Program-made: the position numbers and the translations under genes | The notes under the pieces: generated by a model | Databases searched by the model: none | Seen by the model: only the letters and a program-made list of their open reading frames with translations | What the model was told of the DNA's origin: nothing | Assembly (NCBI GenBank): GCA_001829185.1 | Contig: MIAR01000059.1 | Span: 1 to 64,000, forward strand | From: Spirochaetes bacterium GWB1_60_80 | GTDB taxonomy: Bacteria > Spirochaetota > Spirochaetia > Treponematales > UBA12059 | Length of the DNA: 64,000 nucleotides | Direction: 5' to 3' | Shown: in pieces, positions 20,747 to 44,081 of the stretch | How positions within the stretch are numbered: position 1 is the first letter of the stretch | Layout of the letters: the number at the start of each line of letters is the position of its first letter

Positions 20747-20883
20747 TTAGCAGGTTGTTGAAAAAGCCGGTTGCTTTCCCAACAACCTTAACAATTCCTC
20801 GCATAGCTTGCGCTATGCTGCGTAATTGTACTAGTTATTGAAGTGTTGAAAAGCCGCATTCGCGTTTTTCAACACCCTGTTAG
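20747..20883. mobile_element. 129-bp miniature inverted-repeat element, copy A, with TTAG target duplications
   Basis: The element body is 20751-20879, flanked on both sides by TTAG. The ends are inverted repeats CAGGTTGTTGAAAAA and TTTTTCAACACCCTG. It contains three stem-loops, at the left end (GTTGTTGA/TCCCAACAAC, imperfect), in the centre (GCATAGC/GCTATGC) and at the right end (GTGTTGAAAA/TTTTCAACAC). It differs from the other copies at several bases, so it is the oldest insertion. It lies between the DUF1116 remnant and the cyclase gene and breaks no gene. It encodes no transposase. Confidence 0.9.
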
Positions 20884-20900
20884 GCGCGTCGCCAGGATCG

Positions 20901-21055
20901 TCATTTCGCGTACTTTTCAGAAAAGGCCACCAGGGCGTCGCGGAAGGCGTTCTCCGGCAGGCTTGCCGTCGTCCGTGACGATGCGGAGACAAGCTCCGCA
21001 GGCTTTTCGCGCGCGCCTCCATGCGCGCCAAGCCGCCGGAAACATTATCCGTCAT
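20901..21055 (-). pseudogene. Remnant of a second DUF1116 (ylbE-like) gene
   Basis: Positions 20901-20963 read on the minus strand give SLPENAFRDALVAFSEKYAK and a stop, nearly the same as the C-terminus of the intact ylbE (PPENAFRDALIAFAEKYAR). An ATG at 21055 overlaps the ylbE stop as ATGA, as would be expected for a following gene, but its frame does not reach the C-terminal remnant. The likely history is a tandem ylbE paralogue that lost almost all of its middle. The surviving piece is too short to code for anything useful. Confidence 0.7.
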
Positions 21056-22482
21056 CGGGCGTATTTCTCCGCGAAAGCGATCAGGGCGTCCCTAAAGGCG
21101 TTCTCCGGCGGCTTGACCAACCCGGCGCCGACCATGCCGATGCCGGGGGTCTTGTGGGCGATGCCGGTGTTGATGGCCGGCAGGATGCCGGTCTCGACCA
21201 CCTTGCGCACGTCGATGCCGGTGGGGGTGCCGCGGAAATCGAGCACCGGAATCTGGTAGACGTTGTTCTCGCCGACGCAGATCTCGTACATCCGCTTGGT
21301 GATGTCGATGGCGTCCTGGGGCGATCCGCCGACGAACTTGACGATGGCCGGGGCGGCCGCCATGGCGAAGCCGCCGATGCCGGAGGTCTCGGTGATGACC
21401 GAGTCGCCGATGTCGCGGGCGGCGTCGGCGGCGCCGAAGCCGGGCAGGTAGAGGCCGTCGACCACGCCGGCCGGCCCGGTGAACCAGCGACCGCTCAGGC
21501 CGGACAGGCGGATGCCGAACTCGGTGCCGTTGCGGGCCATGGTGGTGATCAGGCTGCAACCCTCGATGCCGGCGGCGGCGTCGACGGTGCACTTGGCGCT
21601 GGGCATGGTCAGGTTGAGGAAGAAGTGGTCGTTGGCGTTCAGGAAGCTGAGCACCTTGGCGATTTTTTCCTTCGGGTAATCGAGCATCACCAGGTAGGGC
21701 GCCAGTTCGCGGATGATGAGCGAGGTGCCGGCCCGGTTGCGGTTGTGGCCCTCGTCGCCCATCTGCAGTACCTGGGCGATGATCGACTTCATGTCGATCG
21801 GGCCCTTGGCCTGGAGCGCGTCGGATAGGATGGGGGCCAGGTCGGAGGCCATCCAGCGCAGCCGCTCCAACACCTCCTCGGAGTAGGCACCGTAGCGCAG
21901 CACTTTGCCCAAGCCCTCGTTGAGGGTGCAGTAGGCGCGGTTGCCGAAGGTCTGGTTCTCGATGATCCAGACCGGCATGCTGGCGGTCATGACGCCGGCC
22001 ATCGGTCCGACCGCGTCGTGGTGGTGGCAGGGGTCGAAGCGGATCTGGCCCGAGGCGGCCAAGGCTTCAGCTTCGGCCGGGGTCTTAGCCAGGCCTTCGT
22101 AGATCAGGCCGCCGATGACCGCGCCGCGCAGCGGGCCGCACATCTTTTCCCAGCTGACCGGCGGGCCGGCGTGCAGAATGAGATCCTGGGCCATGCCGGG
22201 CACCACGTCGCGGGCCAGGCCGATGCCGACGATGGTCGGCTTGGCGGCCAGGATGCGGCGCAGGCCTTCGGCGTTGGCCGCCTCGATGTCGACCTTCGCG
22301 CCGGCCGCCAGCTTGTCGAGGGCGGCCACGGCGCGCTGGTCGCCGCCGGCCGGCAGGCGCCAGTCGACCTGGACGGCGCTGGCGCCCGAAGCGGCCGCGT
22401 TGGCCGCGAAGTTTTCGAGGCCAAGGTTGATGATGCGGCTGTCGGAGCCGAATAGGCCGTGCAGTGCTGTCTGGTCGCTCAT
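21052..22482 (-). CDS. ylbE: DUF1116 protein YlbE (AllG), oxamate carbamoyltransferase subunit
   Basis: The 476-residue protein starts at ATG 22482 with AGGAGG, overlapping the fdrA stop by 4 bp. It matches the YlbE/DUF1116 family (DPCHHHDAVGPMAGVMTAS, GDEGHNRNRAGTSL, SGLSGRWFTGPAGV). In Escherichia coli the FdrA, YlbE and YlbF products (renamed AllF, AllG, AllH) together form the oxamate carbamoyltransferase that splits oxalurate with phosphate into oxamate and carbamoyl phosphate. All three are present here in one operon. The length is normal for the family. The upstream gene order suggests translational coupling. Confidence 0.9.
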   Translation of the reverse strand: MSDQTALHGLFGSDSRIINLGLENFAANAAASGASAVQVDWRLPAGGDQRAVAALDKLAAGAKVDIEAANAEGLRRILAAKPTIVGIGLARDVVPGMAQDLILHAGPPVSWEKMCGPLRGAVIGGLIYEGLAKTPAEAEALAASGQIRFDPCHHHDAVGPMAGVMTASMPVWIIENQTFGNRAYCTLNEGLGKVLRYGAYSEEVLERLRWMASDLAPILSDALQAKGPIDMKSIIAQVLQMGDEGHNRNRAGTSLIIRELAPYLVMLDYPKEKIAKVLSFLNANDHFFLNLTMPSAKCTVDAAAGIEGCSLITTMARNGTEFGIRLSGLSGRWFTGPAGVVDGLYLPGFGAADAARDIGDSVITETSGIGGFAMAAAPAIVKFVGGSPQDAIDITKRMYEICVGENNVYQIPVLDFRGTPTGIDVRKVVETGILPAINTGIAHKTPGIGMVGAGLVKPPENAFRDALIAFAEKYAR

Positions 22483-24095
22483 GCTGTCCTCCTGGCGTGG
22501 GCGGCCGCCTGGATGATGGCGATGGCCAGGCGGGCGGCGCGGTAATTCGACGGCATGACGATGACGCCGGCCGCTTCCAGCGTGCGCACTTGCTGGCCGA
22601 AATCCTGCGGGTCGTTGCGGGTGCCGGTCACCGAGGCCACTACCGGCAGGTAGCCGCCGCGTTTGGCCGCGGCCGCCTTGGCCGTCTGGATGGCTTCGAC
22701 GCAGGCGCCGGCCGGGTCAGCGTGCGAGCCGTAGCCGAGCACCACGTCCAGGAGCAGCACGGCGCAGGCCGGGTCGGCCCCTTCCTGCGCGATGCGGTCG
22801 GCGCGGGCGGCCGGATCGATCATGGGGTGCGGCTTGCCGACCGTGAAGATATCGTCACCCAGGTCGACAATCGTGTGGCCGACGGATTTGAGCGGGTCGG
22901 CCAGTTGCCAGGCCGGGTCGGTCTGGTTGTTGGAGCGGGCGCCGCCGAGGGCGGCATGGGCCAGGAAGAGCGTCTCGTCGGCCAGGGTGCCGCCGGTGTA
23001 GAGGCCGCGCAGGTATTTCTGCTGCGGGCTCAGGCGGGCGGCTTCAGCGGCCGCCAAAGTGTCGATGCGCTGAAGGCTCGGGCGGCGGAAGCGGTCGTCG
23101 CCGGGGCCTTCCGCTAGGGCTGCGCGGGCGGCGCGCAGGTCGTGGCGGCCGTCGGCCAGGAGCGTGGCCAGCACGGCGCACTCTTCTAGGTTGGCGGCGA
23201 AGGCCACGTTGCCTTCGTCCGGAGAGGGGGGCAGGCCGAGGAAGTGGGCCACGGCCGGCTTGCCGGAGGCGCGCAGGGCGGCCACCACTCGTTTGGCCAC
23301 GTCTGGGGCCGGCGGCTTGCTGACCACCACGATAACGGACGTATCCGGGTCTAGTGCCAGGGCCTTGATGGCCAGAAGGCTGGTCATGCCGCCGACGGCG
23401 GCGTTCTTGAGGTCGCGGCCGCCGGTGCCGATGGCCTGGCTGATGCCCGCGCCGTAGTCGTCGATCAGGCAGCTGACTTCCTGCAGGCCGGTGCCTGAGG
23501 CGGCCACCAGGCCGATGGCGCCGCGCTGCACCCGGTTGGCGAAGCAGAGCGGGATGCCGTTGATGATGGCGGTGCCGCAGTCCGGCCCCATCAGCAACAG
23601 GTCTTTGGAGACGGCGTACTTCTTGAGGGCGATCTCGTCCTCCAGGCTGACGTTATCGGAAAAAACAAGCGTGTGCAGGCCGGCCTCGAGGCATTTACGG
23701 GCCTCGCGCGCCGCCCAGGCGCCCGGTACCGACACCAGGGCCAGGTTGGCGTCTGGCAGCAGGCGGCGGGCGGCACCTAGGCTGGGGACGCGCGGCAGGC
23801 CGTTGCCCTGGGCCGTGTCGGCCTTCTTGCGGTTCAGGCCGGCCAGGGCTTCCTGGGCGGCGGCCGTGGCCTGCGCTTCGTCGTCGGCGTCGATGGCCAC
23901 GATCAGGTCGTTGGGCGTCAACCCGGCCAGGCTGGCGGGGTCGAAGCCCAGGTCGCCCAAAAGGTCGAGGTTCATCGGCGTGGCCATGGCCACGATGGCC
24001 TCGGTCACGCCCGGCAGCTTCTGGACGCCGCGCGAGGCCAGCATCAGGAAGACCGAGTCGTAGTAACTGTCCTTGCGGACCTGGACAAGTTTCAT
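22479..24095 (-). CDS. fdrA: FdrA (AllF), acyl-CoA-synthetase-like subunit of oxamate carbamoyltransferase
   Basis: ATG 24095 has GGGAGGAAAC upstream and overlaps the ylbF stop as ATGA, so the TTG at 24110 is rejected. The protein has 538 residues. It carries a succinyl-CoA-synthetase-like core (GPDCGTAIINGIPLCFAN, GLVAASGTGLQEV, GAGISQAIGTGGRDL) and the family C-terminus with LYTGGTLADET and ASVTGTRNDPQ. FdrA proteins lack true acyl-CoA ligase activity in known cases and work with YlbE and YlbF on oxalurate. Carbamoyl phosphate from this reaction would feed a carbamate kinase, which is not in this window. Confidence 0.9.
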   Translation of the reverse strand: MKLVQVRKDSYYDSVFLMLASRGVQKLPGVTEAIVAMATPMNLDLLGDLGFDPASLAGLTPNDLIVAIDADDEAQATAAAQEALAGLNRKKADTAQGNGLPRVPSLGAARRLLPDANLALVSVPGAWAAREARKCLEAGLHTLVFSDNVSLEDEIALKKYAVSKDLLLMGPDCGTAIINGIPLCFANRVQRGAIGLVAASGTGLQEVSCLIDDYGAGISQAIGTGGRDLKNAAVGGMTSLLAIKALALDPDTSVIVVVSKPPAPDVAKRVVAALRASGKPAVAHFLGLPPSPDEGNVAFAANLEECAVLATLLADGRHDLRAARAALAEGPGDDRFRRPSLQRIDTLAAAEAARLSPQQKYLRGLYTGGTLADETLFLAHAALGGARSNNQTDPAWQLADPLKSVGHTIVDLGDDIFTVGKPHPMIDPAARADRIAQEGADPACAVLLLDVVLGYGSHADPAGACVEAIQTAKAAAAKRGGYLPVVASVTGTRNDPQDFGQQVRTLEAAGVIVMPSNYRAARLAIAIIQAAAHARRTA

Positions 24096-25054
24096 GTTTC
24101 CTCCCGGCAAGCGATGCCGGCCAGCAGACCCTGGACGGTATCCTCACCCGAGGTGGCACCGTGAGCCAGCGCCACCTGCAATGTTTCTAAAAGATTCCGG
24201 CGCGCGGCCTCCAGCGCCGCCATCGCCGCCGCCGGCTCAGCCGGCGGCGGCCAAGTGGATGCGTTGCCGCTACCAGCCGCCAGGGCGACTGACTCGGCCA
24301 GTCCGGCCAAGGCACCAACCAGGCCGGTCAGCCAGGCGGCGGGTTGGCCAGCTAGGCTGCCGAGCAACAGAGTGCGGCCGGCCGGGCTGGTATCAAGCAG
24401 CCTGGCCCGTATATCGTTACGCAGGTCGACAGCGTATTTTCTGCCGCCAGCCGCGTTCATCTCCAAGCTAACAAGAAAACCGGCCAGCCAATCGTCGCCG
24501 GCCGGGGTGCTGCCCGGCCCGAAGCCGACCAGGCCGGCCGGCCAGTCGGGCCGGGCCATCAGCCGCCGGAACTGGCGGTTCCAGACCGTGTCGCCATGTA
24601 GGCCCTCGTAGGGCCGGCCGGCGGCATGGCTATCGTTCACGGCGGCGCGCAGGGCGGCGCTGGCGCCGTGGCGAGCGGCAGCGCCGGCCGCCTGCCAGCG
24701 TACGGCCGCCGCAGCGATGGCCGCGCGGCTGTCAGTAGTGTGCCCGGTTTGGGGTCGGATGGTCAACAGCGGACCGCCCACCGACGCCAACAGCCAGCTG
24801 CGTGCCTGGCGGGTCAGGAAAACCGGGCCGCCTTTGGCCGCCGCGGCCACCAGGCGGCTGACTATCGGCCAGATATCGGGAAAGTATAGCGCCCGGGCTT
24901 CGTGGTCGGCTTCGTCGCGCAGCCACGAAACCAGGGCGCCGTCGGGATGCAGGAAGGCCAGCGCCCGGCCGAATTGCCCCGACAGGGGCGCCGTCCAGGG
25001 CGCGGCCGGCACCAGCGGGCCACACAGGCAGCCCGCCGGATTCAGGTTATTCAA
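24092..25054 (-). CDS. ylbF: DUF2877 protein YlbF (AllH)
   Basis: The 320-residue protein probably starts with TTG 25054, which overlaps the permease stop as TTGA. No strong ribosome site is seen, so translation is likely coupled to the permease gene. It has the DUF2877 signature GLVGFGPGSTPAGDDWLAGFL and a C-terminal GATSGEDTVQGLLAGI. DUF2877 proteins are the third component of the FdrA/YlbE/YlbF oxamate carbamoyltransferase. Order here is ylbF-fdrA-ylbE with 4-bp overlaps throughout, supporting a stoichiometric complex. Confidence 0.85.
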   Translation of the reverse strand: MNNLNPAGCLCGPLVPAAPWTAPLSGQFGRALAFLHPDGALVSWLRDEADHEARALYFPDIWPIVSRLVAAAAKGGPVFLTRQARSWLLASVGGPLLTIRPQTGHTTDSRAAIAAAAVRWQAAGAAARHGASAALRAAVNDSHAAGRPYEGLHGDTVWNRQFRRLMARPDWPAGLVGFGPGSTPAGDDWLAGFLVSLEMNAAGGRKYAVDLRNDIRARLLDTSPAGRTLLLGSLAGQPAAWLTGLVGALAGLAESVALAAGSGNASTWPPPAEPAAAMAALEAARRNLLETLQVALAHGATSGEDTVQGLLAGIACREET

Positions 25055-26310
25055 TCGTTGGTGTCAGTGGTCTTCGGGCGCAGGATGACGTTCAGGACGA
25101 TGCCGAAGATGGCGGCCAGGCCAAGGCCGGACAGGTTGATGTTGCCGAACTTGAAGGCCGCGCCGCCCAGGCCGAGTACTAGCATGGCGGCGGTGATGAT
25201 CAGGATCTTCGGGTTGCCGAGGTTGACCTTGGCGTCGACCATGTTCTTGACGCCGATGGATGAGATCATGCCGAACAGCAGGATGGAGATGCCGCCGATA
25301 ACCGGGCCGGGAATGGTGCCGATGATGGCGGTAAACTTCGGGATCATGGCCAGGACGATGGCGAAACAGGCCGCGATACGCATGATCCAGGGATTGAAGG
25401 CCCCAGTCAAGGCCACGGCGCCGGTGTTCTCGGAGTAGGTGGTGTTGGCCGGGCCGCCGATCAGGGCGGACAGGGAGGTGGCGAGGCCGTCGCCGATTAG
25501 GGTGCGGTGGATGCCCGGATCCTTGATGAAGTCGCGGTTGACGACGTTGCCGATGGCCAGGACGTCGCCGAAGTGCTCGACCATGGTGACGATGGCGATC
25601 GGCACCATCACGGTGATGGCTTCCAGCGAGAACTTGGGCAGGGTGAAGTGGGGAATGCCGATCCAGGCGGCTTCGCGCACGGCGGTGAAGTCGACCAGGC
25701 CGAGGGCGATAGCCAGGGCGTAGCCGGCCACCAGGGAGATCAGGACGGGCAGGTTGGACAGGAATTTCCAGCCGAATTTCTTGAAGGCGATCTTGACGAA
25801 GATGCCGACGGCGAAGGTGAAGAGGGCCAGGCCCCAGCAGCCGTTGACGCCGATGGCTTCGACCAGCGGGGCCGAGTAGGTGCCGTTGGCGTTCTGGATG
25901 GCGACCGGCGCCAGGATCAGGCCGATCAAGATGATCATCGGTCCGGTGACGTGGGTGGGCAGGATCTTGTGCAGGTTTTCATAGGAAATGAACTTGAAAA
26001 TGATGGCGACCACGACGTAGAGGAGGCCGGCCACCACGATGCCGCCCAGGGCATAGGGCAGGCCCTGGCTGGCGCCTACGGCCACCAGGCCCGGGATGAA
26101 GGCGAAGGAACTGCCCAGGAAGACCGGTACCTTGAACTTGGTGATGATGTGGAACAGCCAGGTGCCGATACCGGCCGCGAACAGCGTGACGCTGATGTCC
26201 AGTCCGGTCAGGATTGGCACCAGCACGGTGGCACCGAACATCACGAAGGTGTGTTGCAGTCCGAGCACGACAGTTTTGCCGTTGATCGGTTCGTTCAGGG
26301 ATTCAGCCAT
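25051..26310 (-). CDS. NCS2-family purine/uracil permease
   Basis: ATG 26310 behind GAGGAGG gives 419 residues. Upstream codons to 26553 are non-homologous and overlap the xdhA end. The protein shows about 12-14 membrane segments typical of NCS2, with LGLQHTFVMFGATVLVP at the N-terminus, SSFAFIPGL and the substrate motif TTYSENTGAVALTG, which is closer to UraA than to the QN-type xanthine carriers. Xanthine or uracil uptake with protons is expected. In this operon, directly after xanthine dehydrogenase, import of xanthine, hypoxanthine or urate is most likely. Confidence 0.9.
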   Translation of the reverse strand: MAESLNEPINGKTVVLGLQHTFVMFGATVLVPILTGLDISVTLFAAGIGTWLFHIITKFKVPVFLGSSFAFIPGLVAVGASQGLPYALGGIVVAGLLYVVVAIIFKFISYENLHKILPTHVTGPMIILIGLILAPVAIQNANGTYSAPLVEAIGVNGCWGLALFTFAVGIFVKIAFKKFGWKFLSNLPVLISLVAGYALAIALGLVDFTAVREAAWIGIPHFTLPKFSLEAITVMVPIAIVTMVEHFGDVLAIGNVVNRDFIKDPGIHRTLIGDGLATSLSALIGGPANTTYSENTGAVALTGAFNPWIMRIAACFAIVLAMIPKFTAIIGTIPGPVIGGISILLFGMISSIGVKNMVDAKVNLGNPKILIITAAMLVLGLGGAAFKFGNINLSGLGLAAIFGIVLNVILRPKTTDTND

Positions 26311-26443
26311 GTAAGCCTCCTCGAAGCGCTGGGCTGCCCGGTCAAAAGCCGGGCGGCCCTCTCTATCATTTGCCGGACACAGGATCCGGTCCATGAACAA
26401 TTCCAGCCGCGGGCCGGCCAGGCGGCCAGTCCACTGGTGTCTG

Positions 26444-28885
26444 TCAACGGCCGCCGCCCGGGCGGGCCTCCGGCGCCGAACGGCAGGAGCCGATGGGCGA
26501 TTTGGTGATCCAGTTGTCGATCGGTTCCTTGTGGTTGAGGGCGCGCCAGACATCCTCGCTGCGCATCGGCATGTGCATCAGCTCGGCGCCGGTGGCTTTC
26601 TGGATGGCGTTGCCCAGGGCCGGCGCCACCGAGATCATGGAATGCTCGCCGACGCCGCGGGCGCCGTAGGGGCCGTCGACCTGCGGCGTCTCCACCACGT
26701 AGCACTCGATCTCCAGCGGCAGGTCCTTGGCGGTGGGTATCTTGTTGTCGGTGAAGCTGGGGTTCAAGAGGCGGCCCTGCTGGTCGTAGATGTAACCCTC
26801 GCAGATGGCCGTGCCCAGGCCCTGCAGCATGCCGCCGATGGCCTGGCCGCGCACGATATCCGGGTGGATGGCCCGGCCGACGTCGTAGACGCTGGCGATT
26901 TTGAGGACGTGGTACTCGCCAGTTTCTTCATTGACCTCGACGATGATGCCGTGGGCGCCGAAGGTCCAGTCGATGGCCGGGAAGCCCTCGCCGTTGTCCT
27001 TGTTCAGGTTGGTCAGGCCCTGGGCGATGTAGCGGCCGACGCCGATCAGCGGGCCGCCGATGCCGTTGCCGTTGGGCAGGGCCAGGCCAACCGCCATGCT
27101 CGAGAAGTTGACCGATTTTTTGGGGTGGTGCTTCAGGAAGACCTTGTCGCCATCGTGCCCCAGGTCGCAGGGGTTGGCGTGCAGGGCCTCGGCGGCCACG
27201 GCGTAGGCCTTGTGCAGCAAGTCCTCGGCGGCCAGGATAGCGGCGTTGCCGGACAAGAGCAGGCCCTTGGAAGCCACCGTCTGCCAGTCGTAGGGGTCGC
27301 GGTCGGTGTCGCTTTCAAAAGCCACCTTGATCTTGTGCAGCGGGAAGCCGAGGCGCTCGGCCACGATCTGGCGGATGGAGGTGTAGGTGCCCTGGCCATA
27401 GTCGGTCAGGGCCAGGTTGACCAGGACGGAGCCGTCCTCGTTCATCTTGAGTATCACCGAGGTGGCGGTGAAGGGCGGCATGGCCGGCGCCTTCTGCAGG
27501 GCGGCGACACCCTTGCCGATTTTCCAGCCGGTGGCGGCCTGGCGCGCCTTCTCTTCGTTGGTCAGGTCGCCGTAATGGATGGCGCCGGCGGCCGTTTCCA
27601 GGCACTTGAGGACGTTGCCGGAGTGCGCGGTGATTTCCTCGCCGGTCATGGTTAGGCTGCCGGGGCGCAGGGCGTTGCGCAGGCGGAACAGGAAGGGGTC
27701 CATGCCGATGGCCTCGGCCACCAGTTCCATGTGGCGCTCCACCGCCCAGTGGAATTCGACGTGGCCGAAGCCGCGGTAGGCGGTGCCGTACGGCTTGTTG
27801 GTATAGATGGTGTAGGCGTCCAGCCAGGCGTTGGGAATCTCGTAGGGACCGCTGGCCGAGAAGCCGGAGGCCCGCGTCACGTTGACGGCGTAGTCGGCGT
27901 AGGCGCCGGAATCCCAGTACATGGTCATGTGCTGGCCGACGATCTTGCCGGCGGCGTCGACGCCGGTCTTGATGCGGTAGGTGAGCGCCGAGCGGCAGGG
28001 CAGCAGGCTGAACTCTTCCTCGCGGCTGGCCTGGAACTTGACGGCCCGGCCGCCGGCCTGGCGCGACAGCACGGCGCAGAGCGGCTCGATGCCGATGCCG
28101 GCCTTGCCGCCGAAGCCGCCGCCGACGTAGGGAATCTGGACCCGCACCTGGTTGTGCGACAGGCCGAAGGCGTGGCAGAACAGGTTGCGCACCGTGAAGG
28201 GCGACTGGGCGGACGACCAGATGCTGACCTTGTCGCCCTTGCCCCATTCGACGATGGCCACGTGGGTTTCCAGCGGCACATGCTGCACCGACGGGCAGGA
28301 ATATTCGCGTTCCACCACCCATTCCGCTTCGGCGAAGGCCTTTTCGACGTCGCCTTTGCGCAGTTTGGTGTGGTTGGCGATATTGGTGCCGGGCTGGGGC
28401 GTGAAGGCCGCGGCCATGTAACTGTAGCTGCCCAGGTCGGGGTGCACCAGCGGCGCGTCCGGCTGGAGGGCATCCATGTGGTGCAGGACGGGTTTCAGGA
28501 CTTCGTACTGGACGTCGATGGCCTCGACGGCGGCCCGGGCTTGCTCGATGGTATCGGCCGCCACCGCCACCACGGCCTCGCCGTAATGGCGCACCTCGTC
28601 GCGGGCCAGGATGCGCTTGTCGACCACGTACAGGCCCAGCCGGTAGTCCAGCTCGTCGCCGGTGACGATGGCCCGGACGCCGGGCAGGGCCGCGGCCCGG
28701 CTGGTATCGATGGCCACGATGCGGGCCCGGGCATGCGGGCTTTTTTTGAGCTGGGCGTGCAGCAGGCCCGGGAAGGTCATGTCGGAAACGTAGGTGGCCT
28801 CGCCGGTCAGCTTCTCGAGGCTGTCATCGCGCTTGCCGTTGTGGCCGACCTGGGACAGCTGGCTGCTTGGAACGTCGTCAAACAT
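26444..28885 (-). CDS. xdhA: Xanthine dehydrogenase-type molybdenum-binding subunit
   Basis: The 813-residue protein starts at ATG 28885 with GGGGAG and overlaps the iron-sulfur subunit gene by 8 bp. It is a full-length molybdopterin hydroxylase large chain (VGGGFGGKAG, FQASREEEFSLLPCRS, GTAYRGFGHVE, and a C-terminal GARGVGEHSM with the catalytic Glu of the GVGE motif). The separate FAD and [2Fe-2S] chains precede it, as in E. coli XdhABC. Clade marks for xanthine against other heterocycles cannot be read by eye. The operon context with purine genes supports xanthine or hypoxanthine. Confidence 0.9.
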   Translation of the reverse strand: MFDDVPSSQLSQVGHNGKRDDSLEKLTGEATYVSDMTFPGLLHAQLKKSPHARARIVAIDTSRAAALPGVRAIVTGDELDYRLGLYVVDKRILARDEVRHYGEAVVAVAADTIEQARAAVEAIDVQYEVLKPVLHHMDALQPDAPLVHPDLGSYSYMAAAFTPQPGTNIANHTKLRKGDVEKAFAEAEWVVEREYSCPSVQHVPLETHVAIVEWGKGDKVSIWSSAQSPFTVRNLFCHAFGLSHNQVRVQIPYVGGGFGGKAGIGIEPLCAVLSRQAGGRAVKFQASREEEFSLLPCRSALTYRIKTGVDAAGKIVGQHMTMYWDSGAYADYAVNVTRASGFSASGPYEIPNAWLDAYTIYTNKPYGTAYRGFGHVEFHWAVERHMELVAEAIGMDPFLFRLRNALRPGSLTMTGEEITAHSGNVLKCLETAAGAIHYGDLTNEEKARQAATGWKIGKGVAALQKAPAMPPFTATSVILKMNEDGSVLVNLALTDYGQGTYTSIRQIVAERLGFPLHKIKVAFESDTDRDPYDWQTVASKGLLLSGNAAILAAEDLLHKAYAVAAEALHANPCDLGHDGDKVFLKHHPKKSVNFSSMAVGLALPNGNGIGGPLIGVGRYIAQGLTNLNKDNGEGFPAIDWTFGAHGIIVEVNEETGEYHVLKIASVYDVGRAIHPDIVRGQAIGGMLQGLGTAICEGYIYDQQGRLLNPSFTDNKIPTAKDLPLEIECYVVETPQVDGPYGARGVGEHSMISVAPALGNAIQKATGAELMHMPMRSEDVWRALNHKEPIDNWITKSPIGSCRSAPEARPGGGR

Positions 28886-29363: not shown

Positions 29364-29364
29364 G

Positions 29365-30309: not shown

Positions 30310-30310
30310 G

Positions 30311-32859: not shown

Positions 32860-32996
32860 TTAACAGGTTGTTGAAAAAGCCGGTTGCTTTCTCAACAACC
32901 TTAACAATTCCTCGCATAGCTTGCGCTATGCTGCGTAATTGTACCGGCTTTTGAAGTGTTGAAAAGCCGCATCCGCGTTTTTCAACACCCTGTTAA
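32860..32996. mobile_element. 129-bp inverted-repeat element, copy B, with TTAA target duplications
   Basis: The body is 32864-32992 and TTAA flanks both ends. The body looks identical to copies C and E, so the insertion is recent. It interrupts the HATPase domain of the sensor kinase. One reading frame from the ORF side runs out of the kinase into the element and ends there, replacing the C-terminal ATPase half. Confidence 0.95.
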
Positions 32997-34493
32997 GGAC
33001 GTTGGTCATCAGTTCGTTGATGATGCTACCCAGCGGAAAAAGCTGTTTGGCTCCCAGCTCCACCGGGTCAAATTCCATGACCAGCTCCACCCGGCCGCTG
33101 GCGCCGAAGAGCTGCAGCACGGCGTTGGCCAAGTCACTGAGGTAGTCGCCGGCCTTAAGGAAACGCATGTCATCGGCTACCATCATTTTCTTGTACAATT
33201 CCTGCATACTGGCCAGGCGCGAGAGGGCTTGCTGGAGGGCGGCGCTGACCGCCGGGTCGTCCGAGTCGCCGGCCTGCAGCGACAGCAGGCTGCCGATAGT
33301 GGCGATATTGTTCTTGATGCGGTGGTGTGTCTCCTTGAGTAGGATGGTTTTCTCCTGTAGTTGCCGCTCCAGGCCGGCCTCGTACAGCCGGCGTTGGCTG
33401 AAGTCCTCGATGGTGACCATGACCAGTTCCAGTCGCCCGGCCGGTGGGTCCGGGGCGTGGTCGTCGGCCTGCATCGGGAAGGCGTTGATGTTGATCCAGC
33501 GGTATTCGTTGCGTCCCGGATCGAGTACCCCCATCACGGCGTTGCGTACTGGCTGGCCAGTTTGCAATACCAGCATTGCCGGGTGGGTGTTGCCGGGGTA
33601 GGGGCTGCCGTCTTCATGGATGGACTGCCAACGCGGATCCAGGGAAGTCGTGCCGTAGAGTTGTTCGAGGCTCAGGCCCAGAATGGCGGCTGCGGCCGGG
33701 TTGGCGTAGACGATTTTACCGTCCCGTCCGTGATAGACGACGCCTTGGCTCATGTGGTCGAGCAGGAAGCGTTGACGGGACTCGCTGCTCCGCAACGCCT
33801 GCTCGGCCAGCTTGCGGTCGGTGATGTCCTCGCCTGAGCAGAAGCAGCCCGTGATGTGCCCTTGCTGGTCACGCAGGACGTTATTGTGCCAAGCGATGGT
33901 ACGGAGATCGCCGCAGGTAGTTCGAATTTGGTTTTCGTGGAATTCGGCTGGATCCAGCTCCCCGCTGTGGATGCGGCGCAACACGGCGCGCACCGCGTCA
34001 GCCTGGTCGGCCGGCACGTAGCTGTCCACCCAATTTTGGCCGAGGGCCGTGGCCTGGTCGATGCCGAGGATGGCGCAGCCGCGTTGGTTAATCAGGCTGA
34101 TGCGGCCGTCCATATCCAAGGCCAACAAGATGACGCCGGCCATGTCCAGGTAGAATTGGGCGCGATCAACCGCGCCAGCGGCGTGCTGGGCGCTGAACAA
34201 GCGCCAGGCCAGCTGGAGGGAGGCTTGGATAATGGCGTCGCTGGAACCTTTTGGGATAAAGCCGTAGGCTGGAAGCTGGGCGCCGCGGGCGAAGATGTCC
34301 GGTTCGGTATGCGCCGAAATGAAGACCACCGGCAACTCCCGGCTGGCCAGAATGCGGCGGGCGGTTTCGGCGCCATCGATACCCGCTCCCAGATCGATAT
34401 CCATCAGCACCAGGTCGAACAATGTTTCGCTTTGGGCCACGGCGATGGCCGCTGGGCCGTCTTTGGCCATCAGAACGCGGTAGCCGTAGCCCT

Positions 34494-34630
34494 CTAGCAG
34501 GTTGTTGAAAAAGCCGGTTGCTTTCTCAACAACCTTAACAATTCCTCGCATAGCTTGCGCTATGCTGCGTAATTGTACCGGCTTTTGAAGTGTTGAAAAG
34601 CCGCATCCGCGTTTTTCAACACCCTGCTAG
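34494..34630. mobile_element. 129-bp inverted-repeat element, copy C, with CTAG target duplications
   Basis: The body is 34498-34626 with CTAG on both sides. It interrupts the receiver domain of the sensor kinase after about 26 codons. On the minus strand the element's internal ATG (34551) opens a frame MRGIVKVVEKATG that continues in frame into the rest of the kinase. Confidence 0.95.
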
Positions 34631-36929: not shown

Positions 36930-37044
36930 CGACAATTCCTCCGGTCTACGATCATTCCTGGCTGAGCGCCATCACATTAAAATGCACTCAGGTAATAGTA
37001 ATGGAGAAATCAGTTATTTGACAGCGTTTTTTTGAATGATGTTA

Positions 37045-37278: not shown

Positions 37279-37291
37279 CAGTTGTATTATG

Positions 37292-37325
37292 AAAAAAAGA
37301 CCGTCGCGCGCCAGGCGTGACGGTC
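37292..37325 (-). terminator. Terminator of the FAD oxidoreductase operon
   Basis: On the minus strand GACCGTC pairs with GACGGTC and seven T follow, 20 bp after the stop codon at 37346. Confidence 0.85.
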
Positions 37326-37345
37326 GTGGAGCGGCCTGTGACGGC

Positions 37346-38494
37346 TTACTTGAGTAGCTCCATACCCTCGAATTTTCGATACAGGGTGAACTCGTCCAGC
37401 AGATCCTGGTGTTCCGTCCCGCGGCCGGCCAGGCGTTCGGCCAACAGCTTGCCCAGACCCGGGCCAAGCATGAAACCCTGGCCGCACATCCCCACCGCCA
37501 ACACCAGGTTGGAGATTTCCTGCGGTTCGGCGATGATCGGCAGGCCGTCTGGCGTCATCGGATAGAGGCCGCGCCAGCTGCGGCGTACCTTGAGGTTGCG
37601 CAGGCGCGGGTAGAGGGCCGTCATGCGCTTCAGCACCAGCGGCAGGAAGCTGGAGGTGTTGTCGGTGTCGACGCTCCAGATTTGCGGCTTGGGCGTGATG
37701 CAGAATACCACCTGGCCGGTGACGGCCTGGTAGAAGTAGTAGTTGCCGGAATGCTCGTCCGGGCAGATGTCCACTAGCATCGGCTCCATGAAGCGGGCCA
37801 CCGGGTCGGTGACGCCGGCTTCGTGGGCGTCCGGGTGGACTGGAATCTCCAGGTTGACCAGGCTGGCCAGCTCGGCGCTACTGGCGCCGGCGGCGTTGAC
37901 CACCCGCCCGGCCGCGTAGTCGCCCTGGGTGGTCTGGACGCTGGCGATGTGGCCGCCGTCCAGCCGCATCGCCTGGACGGTCTCGTTAAAACGGAAGTCG
38001 GCGCCAGCCTGCCAGGCCAGGCGGTGGAAGGCGGTGCTGGTCATCATCGGCGAGCAGTAGCCGTCCTCCGGGCTGTAGGTGCCGCCGCGCAGGCCATCAA
38101 GCCGGATGCCGGGCGACAGCTGCCGCACCCGCTCCGGGCTGATCCAGTCGATGTTCAGGCCGGCCGCCTTTTGGGTTTGCAGCAACTGGCGGAAGGCCGA
38201 CTCGCGGGCCTCGTCGTAGGCTACGAACAGGTAGCCGCCGGAGCGCCATTCCACGTCCAGGCCGTGGTCGCGCTCCAGGCCGGACAGGATGCGGATCGAC
38301 TCCTGGCAGATCTTGATCTTGCCGGGGTCGGAGTGGGTGGCGCGGACGCCGCCGATGGCGGCCCGGTTCTGGCCGCGGCCCCAGGAAGCCTCTTGCTCGA
38401 TGACGATGGTTTTCAGGCCGGCCTGGGCGCAGTAGTAGGCCAGCGGCAGGCCGATGGAGCCGGCGCCGAGGATCAGGACGTCGCAGCTGGTCAT
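37346..38494 (-). CDS. FAD-dependent amine oxidoreductase, small subunit (DAO family)
   Basis: The 382-residue protein has an N-terminal FAD fold (VLILGAGSIGLPLAYYCAQ) and the DAO-family features RAAIGGVRATHSDPGK, RVVNAAGASSAEL and YPMTPDGLPIIAEP. It starts with an ATGA overlap behind GGGAGG at the end of the large-subunit gene. This pairing resembles opine oxidase, hydrogen cyanide synthase HcnBC and D-hydroxyproline dehydrogenase. The substrate is probably a secondary amine such as hydroxyproline, sarcosine or an opine. Which one cannot be told. Confidence 0.85.
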   Translation of the reverse strand: MTSCDVLILGAGSIGLPLAYYCAQAGLKTIVIEQEASWGRGQNRAAIGGVRATHSDPGKIKICQESIRILSGLERDHGLDVEWRSGGYLFVAYDEARESAFRQLLQTQKAAGLNIDWISPERVRQLSPGIRLDGLRGGTYSPEDGYCSPMMTSTAFHRLAWQAGADFRFNETVQAMRLDGGHIASVQTTQGDYAAGRVVNAAGASSAELASLVNLEIPVHPDAHEAGVTDPVARFMEPMLVDICPDEHSGNYYFYQAVTGQVVFCITPKPQIWSVDTDNTSSFLPLVLKRMTALYPRLRNLKVRRSWRGLYPMTPDGLPIIAEPQEISNLVLAVGMCGQGFMLGPGLGKLLAERLAGRGTEHQDLLDEFTLYRKFEGMELLK

Positions 38495-40623
38495 TTCAGG
38501 CCTCCCTTGCTGGTGGTGGTAGCGCTGGCGGCGGTAGCGGTGCCGGCGGCGGCGCCGCCGGAGCCGGCCAGGATTTCACCCAAGCCCACTTCCAGCATCA
38601 GCGGCCGGATGGTGCCGGCCGTTACGGTGGCCGGGTCGACTCCGGCCTTGCGGAAAATTTGGGGCAGTAGCACCGCGCAGGTCTTGGAGCCGCAAGCGCC
38701 CATGCCGACGCGCAGGCTCTTCAGCTGATTAACGTCGGTGACGGCGTTTTCTTGGATAAAGCGGACGATCTGGCCGACGCTGACCCGTTCGCAGCGGCAG
38801 ACGATGGCCTCGTCCGGTAGGTACTCGAAGCGGGCCGCGGCCAGAGGAGCGGTGGCCGTTGGCTGCTGGATGCGCACGCCGATGACCCGAGTCGCCAGGT
38901 TCAGACTGACTTTGCAGGTCAGGATCCAGGTACGGTATTTCTTGTTGTGGAATTTCTTGACCAGCGGCGCGTCCTCCAGGAACTGGCCGTACTGGTCTAA
39001 TAGCGGCAGGCGGTCGCCGATGGCGAAGCGGTCGGCCGGGTACTCGAAGGGTATTTGTACCTCGGCGAAGTCCTCGTCCAGAGCGCGCACCAGCGACACG
39101 GCCAGTCCGGGGCAGGCCGCTACGCAGGCCGAGCAGCCGCGGCAGTCGTGGCCCTCGAAGTAGGGCAGGTCCATGATCGAGCCCAGCTTGGGCTTCAGTT
39201 TGATGCTGTGCGTCGGGCAGACGGTAGTGCAGGGGTTGCAGGGGATTTCCTCGTCGCAGAAGAAAATTGGCTGCCAGCTTGTACTCGGCTGTATCGGCAG
39301 ACGCGGAATGATCGCCCCTGGCTTGGATTTGAGCACCTCGCGCTTATCCAGCCAGGCCTGGTCGATAGACACGTTGCGGCCCATCACCTTGGCCAGCGAC
39401 AGGGCGGCGATGCGGCCGCCAAAGATGGCGCTGGAGGCTTCGGCGATCTCCTCGGCGTCGCCGGCCCGGACGGCTGTGAAGCCGAACTTGACGGCCTGCT
39501 TGTAGAATTCGTCACAAGGCGACAAGCCGGCCGCCACCAGCACCGTGTCGACCTCAAAGCTGCGCGCCGTATCCAGCAACGGTTGCCAGTTCTTGTCCAC
39601 CTCGGCGATGGTGACGCGTTCCACCTTGCCGTTGCCCTCCACCGCCACGACGGTGGTGTTCAGGTAGACCGGCACGCCCATGCGGATGATCTTGTCGGCG
39701 TGCACCTTGTAGCCGTTGATCTTGGGCAGAATCTCGCAGATGCCCACCACCGCGATGCCGGCCTGCAGGGCGTGGTAGGAGCCGATCAGGCCGACGTTGC
39801 CGGAGCCGATGACGAAGACGCGCTGGGCGGCCTTGACCAGGTCGCGGTTGACCAAAGTCTGAAAGGCGCCGGCGCCGTAGACGCCGGGCAGGTCGTTGCC
39901 CTTGAACAGGATGGAGCGCTCGCGGGCGCCTGAGGCCACCACGATGGCCTCGAAATCGACCAGCTGGTAGCTGGCGTAGTCGACATAGACGGCCGCCTTC
40001 TTGTCCTTGTAGAGGCCGCAGACCGGCGAGTTGGCCAGGATGGCGGCGTTGGGAAAGGCGCGCAGCTTGGCTTCCAGCTTTTTGGCGATATCGTAGCCAC
40101 GGGTGCCGGCGTAGCAATCGGCCTCGGAACCGAAGAACTTGTGTGTCTGCAGCACCAGCTTGCCGCCCAGCTCGGCCTTGTCGTCCACCAGTAGCACCTT
40201 AAAATCGCGCTCGGCCAGCTCCACCGCGGCGGCCAGGCCGGACGGTCCGCCGCCGATGACCAATACTTCGCATGACAGGCTTTGGGGTGGCTGGGCGGTG
40301 AAGGCCTGGTCTTCGGCCGGCAGCTCGGGCAGGCCGTGGATGGTGCGCACGTCCAGGCCCGCCGCCAGTGGCGTGACGCAGGATTTGCGCGTCACCCCAT
40401 CGATCAGCACCGAGCACTGGCTGCATTGGCCGTTGGCGCAGAAGATACCCTGGGGCGCGTCGTCCTTGGGGTGGGCCGAAAAAGTCCTGATGCCGTTGGC
40501 GAACAGGGCGGTGGAGACGGCCTCGCCAGCCAAGCCGCGCAGGCTCTGGCCGTCGAAGGTAAAACTGACTTCGGGTTTGGCGGGCCGTTGGTCGGCCACC
40601 GGGTGTTCGCTGATACGCTGCAC
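38491..40623 (-). CDS. FAD/NAD(P)-binding iron-sulfur oxidoreductase, large subunit (HcnA/B-like)
   Basis: The start is taken as GTG 40623, with TGGAG 6 bp upstream. An ATG at 40686 lies within the predicted promoter. The protein has 710 residues. The N-terminal ferredoxin-like domain has a Cys cluster (CANGQCSQCSVLIDG). A pyridine-nucleotide-disulfide-type FAD fold follows (VLVIGGGPSGLAAAVELA, then VIGSGNVGLIG). A dicluster region has CNPCTTVCP and CRGCSACVAACPG. A C-terminal BFD-like [2Fe-2S] site has CRCERV and GACGSKTCAVLL. Most relatives split the N-terminal ferredoxin or lack the dicluster, so this is a highly fused form. Confidence 0.85.
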   Translation of the reverse strand: MQRISEHPVADQRPAKPEVSFTFDGQSLRGLAGEAVSTALFANGIRTFSAHPKDDAPQGIFCANGQCSQCSVLIDGVTRKSCVTPLAAGLDVRTIHGLPELPAEDQAFTAQPPQSLSCEVLVIGGGPSGLAAAVELAERDFKVLLVDDKAELGGKLVLQTHKFFGSEADCYAGTRGYDIAKKLEAKLRAFPNAAILANSPVCGLYKDKKAAVYVDYASYQLVDFEAIVVASGARERSILFKGNDLPGVYGAGAFQTLVNRDLVKAAQRVFVIGSGNVGLIGSYHALQAGIAVVGICEILPKINGYKVHADKIIRMGVPVYLNTTVVAVEGNGKVERVTIAEVDKNWQPLLDTARSFEVDTVLVAAGLSPCDEFYKQAVKFGFTAVRAGDAEEIAEASSAIFGGRIAALSLAKVMGRNVSIDQAWLDKREVLKSKPGAIIPRLPIQPSTSWQPIFFCDEEIPCNPCTTVCPTHSIKLKPKLGSIMDLPYFEGHDCRGCSACVAACPGLAVSLVRALDEDFAEVQIPFEYPADRFAIGDRLPLLDQYGQFLEDAPLVKKFHNKKYRTWILTCKVSLNLATRVIGVRIQQPTATAPLAAARFEYLPDEAIVCRCERVSVGQIVRFIQENAVTDVNQLKSLRVGMGACGSKTCAVLLPQIFRKAGVDPATVTAGTIRPLMLEVGLGEILAGSGGAAAGTATAASATTTSKGGLK

Positions 40624-40676
40624 ACTGGACTCCAGGAAGACGGATGGCTCCGCGGGCGGAGCACGATATATCCAAT

Positions 40677-40718
40677 ATATAAGCATACCTTTGGTGTGAT
40701 GTCAAGCTGATATATCAG
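40677..40718 (-). promoter_or_regulatory. Promoter and palindromic operator of the FAD oxidoreductase operon
   Basis: TTGACA (40700-40705) and TTATAT (40677-40682) are 17 bp apart on the minus strand. A perfect 12-bp palindrome CTGATATATCAG (40707-40718) abuts the -35, and GATATATC recurs near the -10. This fits a dimeric regulator, possibly responding to the amine substrate. The 364-bp gap 40624-40987 holds this promoter, the opposing one at 40953 and, between them (40719-40950), no gene I can support. Confidence 0.65.
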
Positions 40719-40952
40719 TTGCGTTTCAGCAATTACGCTGGCCGATGCTTGTTTGGCGTATTTGCTTGACAAACGGTGGCGCCTATACTATTCGCGTCAA
40801 TGACGCGGACGGCAATTACCGGTAGTCTGATTCGGATACTTACACCATGGATGAGCGTGGCAAGGCCTACGGCATCACGCTGTATAACCCTTGCCTGCCC
40901 TGTAGTGATTGAACCGGCCGGAGCATTATAACGATTTAATTCCATTTCCGGC

Positions 40953-40987
40953 TTGAAGATATGGTATATCATGGCTATAATGACCTC
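40953..40987 (+). promoter_or_regulatory. Promoter giving a leaderless transcript
   Basis: TTGAAG (40953-40958) and a perfect TATAAT (40976-40981) are 17 bp apart. Only six bases separate the -10 from ATG 40988, where transcription should start, and no ribosome site is present. Confidence 0.7.
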
Positions 40988-42244
40988 ATGAAAGACTTGA
41001 AAGTTGGCATCGGTTTCGTTACCGGACGCCGCGGTTTCCGTCATTTATTCCGCACCTACGTCAATAATTGGACCGAGTTCGGCTTCGTGGCCGACCCAAG
41101 CACCCAGCTGCGCCTCTTCGTGGCCTATGACCTGTCTTACTTCGGGACCCACCCCTCGGACTTTAAAAAGGTCGATCCGTTGCTGGCCGGCAAGCTCGAC
41201 GGGCTATGCTGGTTTGGCACGACCCGCATCGCCCAGGAAAAGCAGCAACTGGTACGCGAAGGGGTGGTCGGCAAGGCCGAGGCCGAGCTGTTGTTCGGCG
41301 ACGGTTATGGCCGTAAGCGCAACGCCGTGGTCTGGTTCGCGCTGCGCGCCGGCATGGATCGCTTGCTGTTCATCGACGACGACGAGTACCCGCTGGCCGT
41401 GCAGCGCGGTCAACCGCCCCTGTGGTGCGGCCAATCGATACTGGGCCGGCATCTGGCCGCTTCGGCCGAGGCCGACATCACCCACGGCCGGCATTGTGGC
41501 TACATCTCTCCCATCCCGCGGCTGGACTTTACGGCTGACTTGCCCGAGGCCGACTTTGCCGCCTTTATCGACGCCCTGTCCAACGATATCGTTTCCTGGG
41601 ACACCATTCGCCGGGTGGTCATTGGCGACGGCGGTGTCACCTACGCCGACCCGGACATACTAAGCCACAATCAGCCGGTCGAGGTGCCAGCCGTCAAGGG
41701 CATGAAGTTTATCAGCGGCGCCAACCTTTGCCTGAATCTGGAGCGTGGTGGCGCTGACGCTCCTTTCTTCAATCCGCCGGGGGCGCGCGGTGAGGATACC
41801 TTCCTGTCCACCTGCCTCTTGGAGCGGCGCGTGCTGCGGGTCAGCGCGTATACCTTTCATGACGCCTTCCTGCGCTACAAGGCGCTTTTGCATGGCGTGC
41901 TGCCGCGCCGCCTGGAAGCGGTCGAGGCCACCGATGCGGCGGTGGCGCAACGCTTCGCCAAGGCGGCCGTCGGCTGGGTGCGCTACAAGCCGCTGTTAAC
42001 CTACATTACCGACCGCTCGGCCTACCAGGCTACTATCGAGTCGATGTCTGCCACCTTCCGGCGCTTGGGACCTAGCCTGCAGCGCTATTTCAAGGCCGCC
42101 GAATTCCTGAGTCTGGGACAGGAGTTGAAACGCTACGACCGGCAGGTGGTTGAGCATTATGATATGTTCGAACGTACCAAGCTAGCCTGGCGGAAAGCCC
42201 TGCCCTGGGCACGGGCCAATTCCAACCGGGAACGGCCGGCATGA
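40988..42244 (+). CDS. Glycosyltransferase-like protein
   Basis: ATG 40988 is chosen because it coincides with the expected transcript start; an ATG at 40961 lies inside the promoter. The protein has 418 residues. It has a DxD-like acidic motif in RLLFIDDDEYPLAV and a pattern of beta-alpha units like GT-A enzymes, plus GANLCLNLERGG. I cannot place it in a named family, and the donor and acceptor are unknown. Its stop overlaps the next gene by 4 bp, so a membrane or envelope role is possible. Confidence 0.6.
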   Translation: MKDLKVGIGFVTGRRGFRHLFRTYVNNWTEFGFVADPSTQLRLFVAYDLSYFGTHPSDFKKVDPLLAGKLDGLCWFGTTRIAQEKQQLVREGVVGKAEAELLFGDGYGRKRNAVVWFALRAGMDRLLFIDDDEYPLAVQRGQPPLWCGQSILGRHLAASAEADITHGRHCGYISPIPRLDFTADLPEADFAAFIDALSNDIVSWDTIRRVVIGDGGVTYADPDILSHNQPVEVPAVKGMKFISGANLCLNLERGGADAPFFNPPGARGEDTFLSTCLLERRVLRVSAYTFHDAFLRYKALLHGVLPRRLEAVEATDAAVAQRFAKAAVGWVRYKPLLTYITDRSAYQATIESMSATFRRLGPSLQRYFKAAEFLSLGQELKRYDRQVVEHYDMFERTKLAWRKALPWARANSNRERPA

Positions 42245-42786
42245 GTGCGCCTACGGTGCGGGACTGGCTGGCTAGTGGTCGCCATGAATTTACCCAGAAT
42301 CTCACTTCGGCCCGTTTTCGGGCTTATTTGATTAAATCGGCCTTAGGGGTAGCTTTTTGTTATGGAATGCGCCTGCTGATACCCAATCGGGAGACCCTGT
42401 GGAGCATCGTCTCGGTGGTGTTGGTGCTGGCGCCGGACGACAAGGATGCCATCAAGCTAGCCTTTGACCGCATGAAGGCCAACTGGACTGGGGCCCTGAT
42501 CGGCTGGCTGGCGGCGCTGACCGGTTGGCCGGGCTTGGTCGCGCTGCCGCTGGCCGTGCCGCTGGCCATCCTGGTCTGTCTGTGGCTGCGGCTGGGAACG
42601 GCCACGCGTAGCGCCCTGGCCGGTTTGGTCATCGTCTACGTGCGCGATCCCGGCATGGCGGCCGGGGCGGCGGCCTTCGACCGCGCTTTCTTTGTGATGC
42701 TCGGTTGCCTGGTTGGCCTGCTCATTACCATCGGCGCTCGTGGCCTGGCGGCTTTGGGCACCTGGCTGGGCCGGCGGCGAAAATGA
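42241..42786 (+). CDS. Aromatic-acid-exporter/FUSC-like membrane protein
   Basis: The 181-residue protein starts as ATGA overlapping the glycosyltransferase-like gene. It has about five hydrophobic segments and the early pattern YLIKSALGVAFCYGMR, LWSIVSVVLVLAPDDKDAIK, as in the short ArAE/FUSC-2 proteins. The family is linked to export of aromatic acids. Here the partner may be the upstream enzyme. Element D follows 8 bp after the stop. Confidence 0.65.
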   Translation: MSAPTVRDWLASGRHEFTQNLTSARFRAYLIKSALGVAFCYGMRLLIPNRETLWSIVSVVLVLAPDDKDAIKLAFDRMKANWTGALIGWLAALTGWPGLVALPLAVPLAILVCLWLRLGTATRSALAGLVIVYVRDPGMAAGAAAFDRAFFVMLGCLVGLLITIGARGLAALGTWLGRRRK

Positions 42787-42793
42787 ACTGCGC

Positions 42794-42894
42794 TTAGCAG
42801 GGTGTTGAAAAACGCGGATGCGGCTTTTCAACACTTCAAAAGCCGGTACAATTACGCAGCATAGCGCAAGCTATGCGAGGAATTGTTAAGGTTG
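42794..42894. mobile_element. 129-bp element, copy D, inverted and truncated
   Basis: TTAG then CAGGGTGTTGAAAAA begins the element in the opposite orientation to copies A-C and E. It matches to GTTAAGGTTG at 42894 and then stops, so the last 30 bp or so and the second target duplication are missing. The break suggests deletion by recombination. Confidence 0.9.
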
Positions 42895-43037
42895 CTGCCG
42901 CACATGGTCAATAGGGTGATAGCCGCGAAGTTCCGAAGATTCATCAGGTGAGCACTCCTGCAGAGTCGGGGAGTCAAGCATAGTATACGTCTGGTGACAA
43001 TCGAATTGCCAGAAGGGGGATCGGGTAACCCTCTGCC

Positions 43038-43220
43038 GGCTCAGCCGGCGGCCGCTATTCTGCCCGCCCGGACTGCGCGTCCGGGCGACCGGCTGCACCT
43101 GGTTGCCTTACAGGCTCAGCCAGAGGCCGCTATTCTGCCCGCCCGGACTGCGCGTCCGGGCGACCGGCTGCACCTGGTCGCCTTATAGGATCAGCCAGAG
43201 GCCGCTATTCTGTCCGCCCG
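43038..43220. repeat. 75-bp tandem repeat copying the 3' end of the QueG-like gene
   Basis: Units start at 43038, 43113 and 43188 (the last partial), with the core GCCGCTATTCTGCCCGCCCG. The third unit contains the stop codon of the gene at 43205, so the two outer units are duplicated gene-end sequence. The 418-bp gap 42787-43204 otherwise holds only element D and about 140 bp without any recognisable feature. Confidence 0.85.
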
Positions 43221-43942
43221 GACGCGATAAAGTCGGCCAGGTTGCGGCGCAGTCGAGGATGCCAGAGCTGGAGTTCGGCCGCGTCGTCCTGGTTGACGAT
43301 ACGGGCCAAGAGGGCGCGAACCTGGTCGTTCCATACGTCGCCCAGGAGCAGCGCGGTTTCCGCCTCGGTCAGGGGGGCCAGGGGCAGCGGCTTGGCCCAG
43401 GCGACGGCGTTGATCGGGCACTGCCGCTGGCACAGGACACAGCCCATCAGGGCATTGGCCGCCGTGGCCGGAATGTCGGCCGGCAGGTCGCGGTCGGTTT
43501 CATTCCATAACGGCAGGCAGCGCTCCACCTTGATTTGGCCGAAGGGGTCGGGAATCGCTCTGGTTGGACAGGCCGCCAGGCAGCGTCGGCAGATCTGGCA
43601 GGCTGCGTGCAAAGCCGGTCCGGGATAGGCCGCTTGGTGTAGGGGCGCGGTGGCGTCTGCCGTCGGGACCGCCGCCGGCTGGAGTATGGAACGGGTTTTT
43701 CCCTGCCAGACAAAGGGCAGGCGGCGCGGCGGGAAGGCGGTGGCCGCCACGACTATGGATTGAGCCCAGGCCTGTCCGGTCGGTACGGCCAGGCTATGTT
43801 CCTTGATATAGCCGCGGAAGGTGGCGTCTGGCGAGGCGCGGTCGCGGTTATCCTCCCGCCAGCCCGTCAGCTTGGTTAAAGCCGCGGTCGGTAGCGTCGT
43901 CCAGACAGCGTCGCGATCCTCAATATTCATTTGGTTTAGCAT
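43205..43942 (-). CDS. QueG-like 4Fe-4S double-cluster protein, upstream region replaced by element E
   Basis: From ATG 43942 the protein has 245 residues. The clusters are CQICRRCLAACPTRA (about residue 120) and a second set with RCLPLW, then MGCVLCQRQCPINA, the arrangement of epoxyqueuosine reductase and related ferredoxins. The N-terminal part QSIVVAATAFPPRRLP suggests a short version of the corrin-binding half. Element E begins 3 bp upstream of the start, so the natural promoter and ribosome site are gone. The element offers an in-frame ATG at 44002 that would add 20 residues. Function uncertain, possibly an electron-transfer paralogue. Confidence 0.65.
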   Translation of the reverse strand: MLNQMNIEDRDAVWTTLPTAALTKLTGWREDNRDRASPDATFRGYIKEHSLAVPTGQAWAQSIVVAATAFPPRRLPFVWQGKTRSILQPAAVPTADATAPLHQAAYPGPALHAACQICRRCLAACPTRAIPDPFGQIKVERCLPLWNETDRDLPADIPATAANALMGCVLCQRQCPINAVAWAKPLPLAPLTEAETALLLGDVWNDQVRALLARIVNQDDAAELQLWHPRLRRNLADFIASGRTE

Positions 43943-43944
43943 CG

Positions 43945-44081
43945 TTAACAGGTTGTTGAAAAAGCCGGTTGCTTTCTCAACAACCTTAACAATTCCTCGC
44001 ATAGCTTGCGCTATGCTGCGTAATTGTACCGGCTTTTGAAGTGTTGAAAAGCCGCATCCGCGTTTTTCAACACCCTGTTAG
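43945..44081. mobile_element. 129-bp element, copy E, with unmatched flanks TTAA/TTAG
   Basis: The body 43949-44077 looks identical to copies B and C. Left flank TTAA and right flank TTAG differ, unlike the perfect duplications at A, B and C. The right flank overlaps the end of the second element (44081). Mismatched flanks suggest recombination between two copies rather than simple insertion. Confidence 0.9.

Follow-up and report, generated by a model that had tools for sequence, protein, structure and literature searches.

Bacterial miniature inverted-repeat elements (MITEs) are usually viewed as decayed insertion sequences of which the ends alone are important, and two of them, ERIC and NEMIS, duplicate TA. 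ERIC, YPAL, NEMIS and Nezha are listed among the bacterial MITEs, and examples with strong secondary structure are already known (PMC3733652), as are REPINs with compensatory changes (PMC3116915). The sequence YTAR is the conserved duplication motif of the IS5 family (PMC10359306). The repeat described here was located in a 64,000-nucleotide stretch of DNA from Spirochaetes bacterium GWB1_60_80 (the window), and it contrasts with the usual view of MITEs in that its ends change while its fold stays, across at least 46 genera.

Copies, target duplications and insertion sites

The five copies in the window and the domains of one of them are listed in Table 1. A sequence-only reading of the window had reported the positions and the exact 129-bp length of copies A, B, C and E, perfect 4-bp flanks around A, B and C, the identity of B, C and E and the truncation of D, and all of these points were borne out by re-reading, the four full copies lying on the plus strand. 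Copy A differs from B at six positions. Two open frames on the minus strand, one for a PAS-histidine kinase (window 32926-34551) and one for a 4Fe-4S protein (window 43205-44002), have starts which extend into copies C and E, respectively, so that both may have gained their start region from the element.

Table 1. Element copies in the window and predicted domains of copy B
Feature	Position	Strand	Description	Flanks	Basis
Copy A	20751..20879	+	129 bp	TTAG/TTAG	
Copy B	32864..32992	+	129 bp	TTAA/TTAA	
Copy C	34498..34626	+	129 bp, identical to B	CTAG/CTAG	
Copy D	42798..42894	-	Truncated; 97 bp equal to the reverse complement of B, one terminal hairpin lost		
Copy E	43949..44077	+	129 bp, identical to B	TTAA/TTAG (one mismatch)	
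Terminal hairpin 1 of copy B	32865..32901	+	Model helix 4 on the minus strand		Covariation
Core domain of copy B	32904..32942	+			Covariation; loops
Terminal hairpin 2 of copy B	32956..32988	+	Model helix 1 on the minus strand		Covariation

The host assembly is a draft of 3.6 Mb in 59 contigs and is 96% complete. A whole-genome scan with a pattern combining the end and YTAR (YTARCAGGNTGTTGAAAAA) gave 163 + 149 matches, compared with none for the reversed control pattern, which corresponds to approximately 150 copies of the element; the repeat first noted as five copies is thus real, its number having been understated. The length was exactly 129 bp in 37 of the 38 fully read copies, and the flanking 4-mers were identical on both sides in 34 of the 38 (copy E being among the four exceptions), against 9.8 expected from the marginals and a maximum of 22 in 100,000 shuffles. 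Because all four YTAR variants are present among the flanks of the host copies, YTAR is a real duplication and not a fixed sequence, in agreement with the target duplication originally proposed. Two sequence variants account for 29 of the 38 copies, which indicates that the expansion is recent, as had been suggested from the identity of B, C and E. Several of the truncated host copies are due to a gap (N) in the assembly or to the end of a contig, and others stop at the foot of a terminal hairpin, with truncation being seen at either end of the element. With its inverted ends, lack of coding capacity, short fixed length, target duplications and high copy number, the repeat has the features of a MITE that the sequence-only reading had ascribed to it, and the duplications and the copy number demonstrate its mobility.

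Some variant forms were also observed. At G000:C11:23551-24531 (L045) three copies stand in a row with a spacing of 422 bp (the 129-bp element and a further 293 bp), a tandem duplication which includes the element. Forms of 48 bp (CTAG-CAGGGTGTTG...TTCAAAAGCCG-CTAG), consisting of one terminal hairpin and linker with CTAG on both sides, occur at L043:2642 and L045:3674 and share the same junction; they may reflect a cryptic inner end or repeated deletions. Solo hairpins of ~37-56 bp with YTAR flanks (L265, L264, L106:810-859, L148:4406-4458 and L169:6239-6283) are found in the host genome as well as in unrelated bacteria, and may represent the minimal form in which these ends can transpose. 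A host subfamily (L261:1500-1620 and L044:5748-5909) has an enlarged centre hairpin containing CCAGAGTACTGGCGC. Another host copy (L274, G000:C35:128373-128502) belongs to an older, diverged subfamily and is close to the copies of other genera, which implies that several lineages of the element coexist in the host.

None of 37 copies was located inside a coding-like frame. Nine of the 33 copies with two called neighbours lie exactly at the stop codon of a gene, with the TAR of YTAR forming the stop. The corresponding proportions in the window are 1.7% for YTAR sites overall and 6.8% for those in non-coding DNA; the excess over the latter has a p-value of 0.0003, the gene calls being approximate. 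As YTAR is duplicated, the stop codon stays intact. The fixed length, the ~150 recent copies and a 4-bp target which is often a stop codon make this a well-defined system in which to study low-harm insertion.

Covarying fold and variety of ends within the order

The element is laid out as a terminal hairpin, a linker (consensus CTWCCTTAATGT on the minus strand), a core and a second terminal hairpin. The core of copy B has an outer stem (ACAATT/AATTGT) and an inner stem (GCATAGC/GCTATGC), with an asymmetric internal loop GCA/GA and an apical loop GCAA on the minus strand. Throughout the family the outer and inner stems of the core are separated by an asymmetric internal loop, with GYA facing GA, and the inner stem is capped by a loop which is mostly of GNRA type. 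Related elements of other genera are 129-131 bp long, with YTAR flanks and compensated changes in the stems.

Covariation was assessed at 45 base pairs in a sequence-only alignment (MAFFT) of 45 elements. Two-sided changes were found at 34 of the 45 pairs, compared with 18.0 +/- 1.9 in shuffles; the structure was drawn from the same sequences, so that the percentage of paired positions is biased, a bias which does not explain the two-sided changes. The covariation score of 0.246 (0.086 in shuffles) was reached by 0 of 500 shuffles, and in slid controls, where partners were moved by 1-3 columns, the score was at most 0.083, such that the covarying base pairs exceed both kinds of control. A wider alignment, which was fitted to the structure by the model and in which arms of different types share little or no sequence, gave two-sided changes at 44 of the 45 pairs and a score of 0.657 vs. 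0.173. The internal loop and the linker are conserved in a strand-specific manner across genera. For 56 of 58 elements the minus strand was predicted to form a more stable RNA fold than the plus strand, a difference which held for the mean of each sampled genome, although this is suggestive only because related sequences are not independent. The fold would act as RNA or as single-stranded DNA, and its candidate roles may be recognition by a transposase or host factor, folding of single-stranded DNA at replication, or a transcribed RNA.

A covariance model was built from related elements and matches were accepted at E <= 1e-4, the E-values being rough owing to a short calibration; eight candidates were scored per genome, so that copy numbers in the relatives are lower bounds. 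Matches were obtained in 71 of the 394 genomes and 46 of the 92 genera of the order, whereas G001, a genome of the same genus as the host, is without copies. The terminal arms of these elements are of at least five unrelated types, most of them with 4-bp duplications, while the fold and the strand-specific linker persist. Arms of type GGAAGCRCTGA have CTAG or CTAA duplications (5 of 10), type GTGTCTGTCC has 4-bp duplications in 4 of 8, and type GAGGCTCTTTCAAAAG / GAGGYTCTTTCAAAAG has them at other targets in 10 of 15, with two of the GAGGYTCTTTCAAAAG-type duplications appearing to be one orthologous insertion and 4 bp being the best length. Target duplication was not found in six copies with arms of type GGGGCTGTCC. 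These GGGGCTGTCC..AAG arms match the order's IS1182 insertion sequences at each end (e.g., GGGGCTGTCCTGGAAGTT and GGGGCTGTCCAAAAAG), one of which was identified as IS1182 with 442 bits against a cut-off of 270.

Elements with the same ends outside the spirochaetes match the covariance model weakly (best 40 bits), so the core seems to be specific to the order among the sampled genomes. With the long right end as the search pattern, genome contigs other than those of the host gave no match, and a plasmid search gave matches at chance level only. In the relatives it is structure and not sequence that is conserved, a point which could not be seen from the window by itself, and a covariance model can detect such elements when searches by sequence do not. 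Two species (L358, G095:C59 and L360, G044:C16) carry the same insertion with identical flanks, an old orthologous insertion which is usable for dating.

Search for the transposase

The 4-bp pattern had initially been attributed to mobilization by IS701-type transposases. This was not supported: their domain PF13546 (DDE_5) was absent from the host genome, and just two of 99 relatives have it, neither being an element carrier. An IS701 derivative was rejected on these grounds. Proteins with PF05598, PF01609, PF13546 or PF01797 were not detected in the host genome (draft, 96% complete), nor were IS5, IS1182, IS701 or Y1 transposases. Neither PF05598 nor PF01609 was found in a good-quality carrier genome (G014), and PF05598 and the element are unassociated in the 394 genomes of the order (20 with both vs. 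19.5 expected). The insertion-sequence ends checked in carrier genomes gave no match to the element ends there; no IS5 or IS1182 partner was identified in the host or the carrier genomes, and an autonomous element containing the complete structured core was likewise not found. A search of the host for single ends which could belong to a full-length insertion sequence gave six matches: four were solo hairpins, a fifth was a copy which is truncated and has a larger centre, and the sixth (L262) has neither a recognizable partner end nor an adjoining transposase.

The end together with YTAR has at least 88 matches in public genomes from many phyla, compared with an estimated ~2 expected. Among other bacteria, insertion sequences of 1.5 kb which share the CAGGNTGTTGAAAAA ends and are flanked by YTAR encode a DUF772 + DDE_Tnp_1 transposase, which matches the NCBIfam IS5-family model NF033581 at 264 bits against a cut-off of 140. 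An IS5-type transposase adjoins such an end at 11 loci, and in most of these it starts ~80 bp inside the end. Approximately 30 other short elements of other lengths, from other phyla, have the same ends, and their flanks were identical in 23 of 33 pairs. Since IS5-family insertion sequences share these ends and YTAR is the motif of that family, the ends of the element are of IS5 type, both ends and target being common to it and IS5-family insertion sequences. An insertion sequence with the same terminal repeats, as sought after the sequence-only reading, thus exists in other bacteria but was not found in the host; the proposed mobilization in trans would depend on an enzyme which may have been lost, may be unassembled or may be of another family. 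In Methyloversatilis, an open frame similar to group II intron reverse transcriptases that have an HNH end lies between two 99-bp elements (L144:146-252 and 1810-1916), which carry these ends in inverted orientation.

Origin of the element and comparison with known systems

The element is probably a non-autonomous DNA transposon, i.e., a MITE belonging to a structure-conserved family of this spirochaete order, which is moved by a DDE transposase of the IS5/IS1182 superfamily and whose ends are exchanged or imitate those of others. At the sequence level, two of the end types match IS5- and IS1182-family insertion sequences, and the duplications together with the end types point to transposases of this superfamily, acting in trans, as the putative mobilizing enzymes. 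Under this reading, two terminal hairpins, of which the outer arms would be the transposon ends, lie on either side of a core stem-loop, in which the asymmetric internal loop is fixed, and of a linker which is strand-specific; a transposase provided in trans would most likely cleave the ends, and insertion would take place at a 4-bp YTAR target which becomes duplicated. Because the arms differ between lineages while the core stays, the core would have been combined with different transposon ends, or the ends would have evolved to imitate them, and the ends appear to have been swapped rather than to have drifted step by step.

Palindromes are prone to self-correction, and this could create compensated stems. 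A plain IS5-derived MITE, with hairpins that are by-products of the inverted ends and are corrected by template switching with no selection on structure, would agree with the IS5-type ends and with the existence of YTAR-flanked solo hairpins. It is nonetheless considered unlikely, as correction leads to perfect palindromes, yet the unpaired GYA/GA loop, the GNRA-type loop and the single-stranded linker are kept on one strand across genera, and the core layout stays while the arms change entirely. Movement as single-stranded DNA by a RAYT (Y1 HUH) transposase, as for a REPIN-like element with YTAR in place of GTAG, would account for the inverted hairpin pair and for the tetranucleotide at the outer base of either hairpin; REPINs are described as having compensatory changes (PMC3116915), and several carrier genomes contain Y1 genes. 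Against this, the 4-mers on the two sides vary together as a duplication (34 of 38), which the Y1 mechanism does not produce, and this explanation is very improbable. Membership in the REPIN/RAYT systems is disfavoured, no Y1 gene having been found in the host, the Y1 genes of relatives having no element beside them and target duplications being present. Least probable of all is a SINE-like retroelement, its minus-strand RNA reverse-transcribed and inserted at 4-bp staggered cuts, as the strand-specific motifs, GNRA-type loops, more stable minus-strand RNA and truncated copies which it would explain are set against truncations at either end, rather than at the 5' end only, and ends which are inverted repeats common to DNA transposons.

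Beyond the preferred reading of a MITE moved by IS5/IS1182-superfamily transposases, it is conceivable, if somewhat doubtful, that a structured module (probably minus-strand RNA or single-stranded DNA) persists throughout the order by repeatedly acquiring transposase-imitating arms, the invariant being the fold and not the sequence. If the structure is required, it may be asked what part a folded strand plays in the life of a DDE transposon, and by what route non-autonomous elements pass from one transposase to another.

The repeat had not been recognized as a described family, and this still stands: comparison with Rfam gave no match to a known RNA at the gathering score, and no description was found in the open-access literature. 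To our knowledge, based on open-access papers, the pairing of an invariant core with exchangeable ends throughout a bacterial order has not been described. IS1182-family insertion sequences have ends (GGGGCTGTCC..AAG) which constitute one terminal type of the element family in the same order; in contrast to them, elements of the GGGGCTGTCC type lack target duplication in six copies, and no IS1182 was found in the host genome. IS5-family MITEs (ends CAGGNTGTTGAAAAA, YTAR target) share the terminal sequence, the 4-bp YTAR duplication, the non-coding nature and the high copy number, whereas the present element has a covarying three-domain fold and relatives with unrelated ends, and a search of its host gave no partner insertion sequence. 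REPINs and BIMEs, which are mobilized by RAYTs, likewise have two inverted hairpins with a tetranucleotide at their feet, an intergenic location and compensatory changes; the element differs in its true target duplications, in YTAR rather than GTAG, in a host without Y1 and in its length of ~129 bp with a separate core stem-loop. ERIC, YPAL, NEMIS and Nezha are also palindromic, non-coding intergenic repeats with strong secondary structure, and are similar in size to the element. The target of the element is a 4-bp YTAR, where ERIC and NEMIS duplicate TA; the element probably also differs from all four in sequence, and it has ends which vary between genera on a constant core fold.
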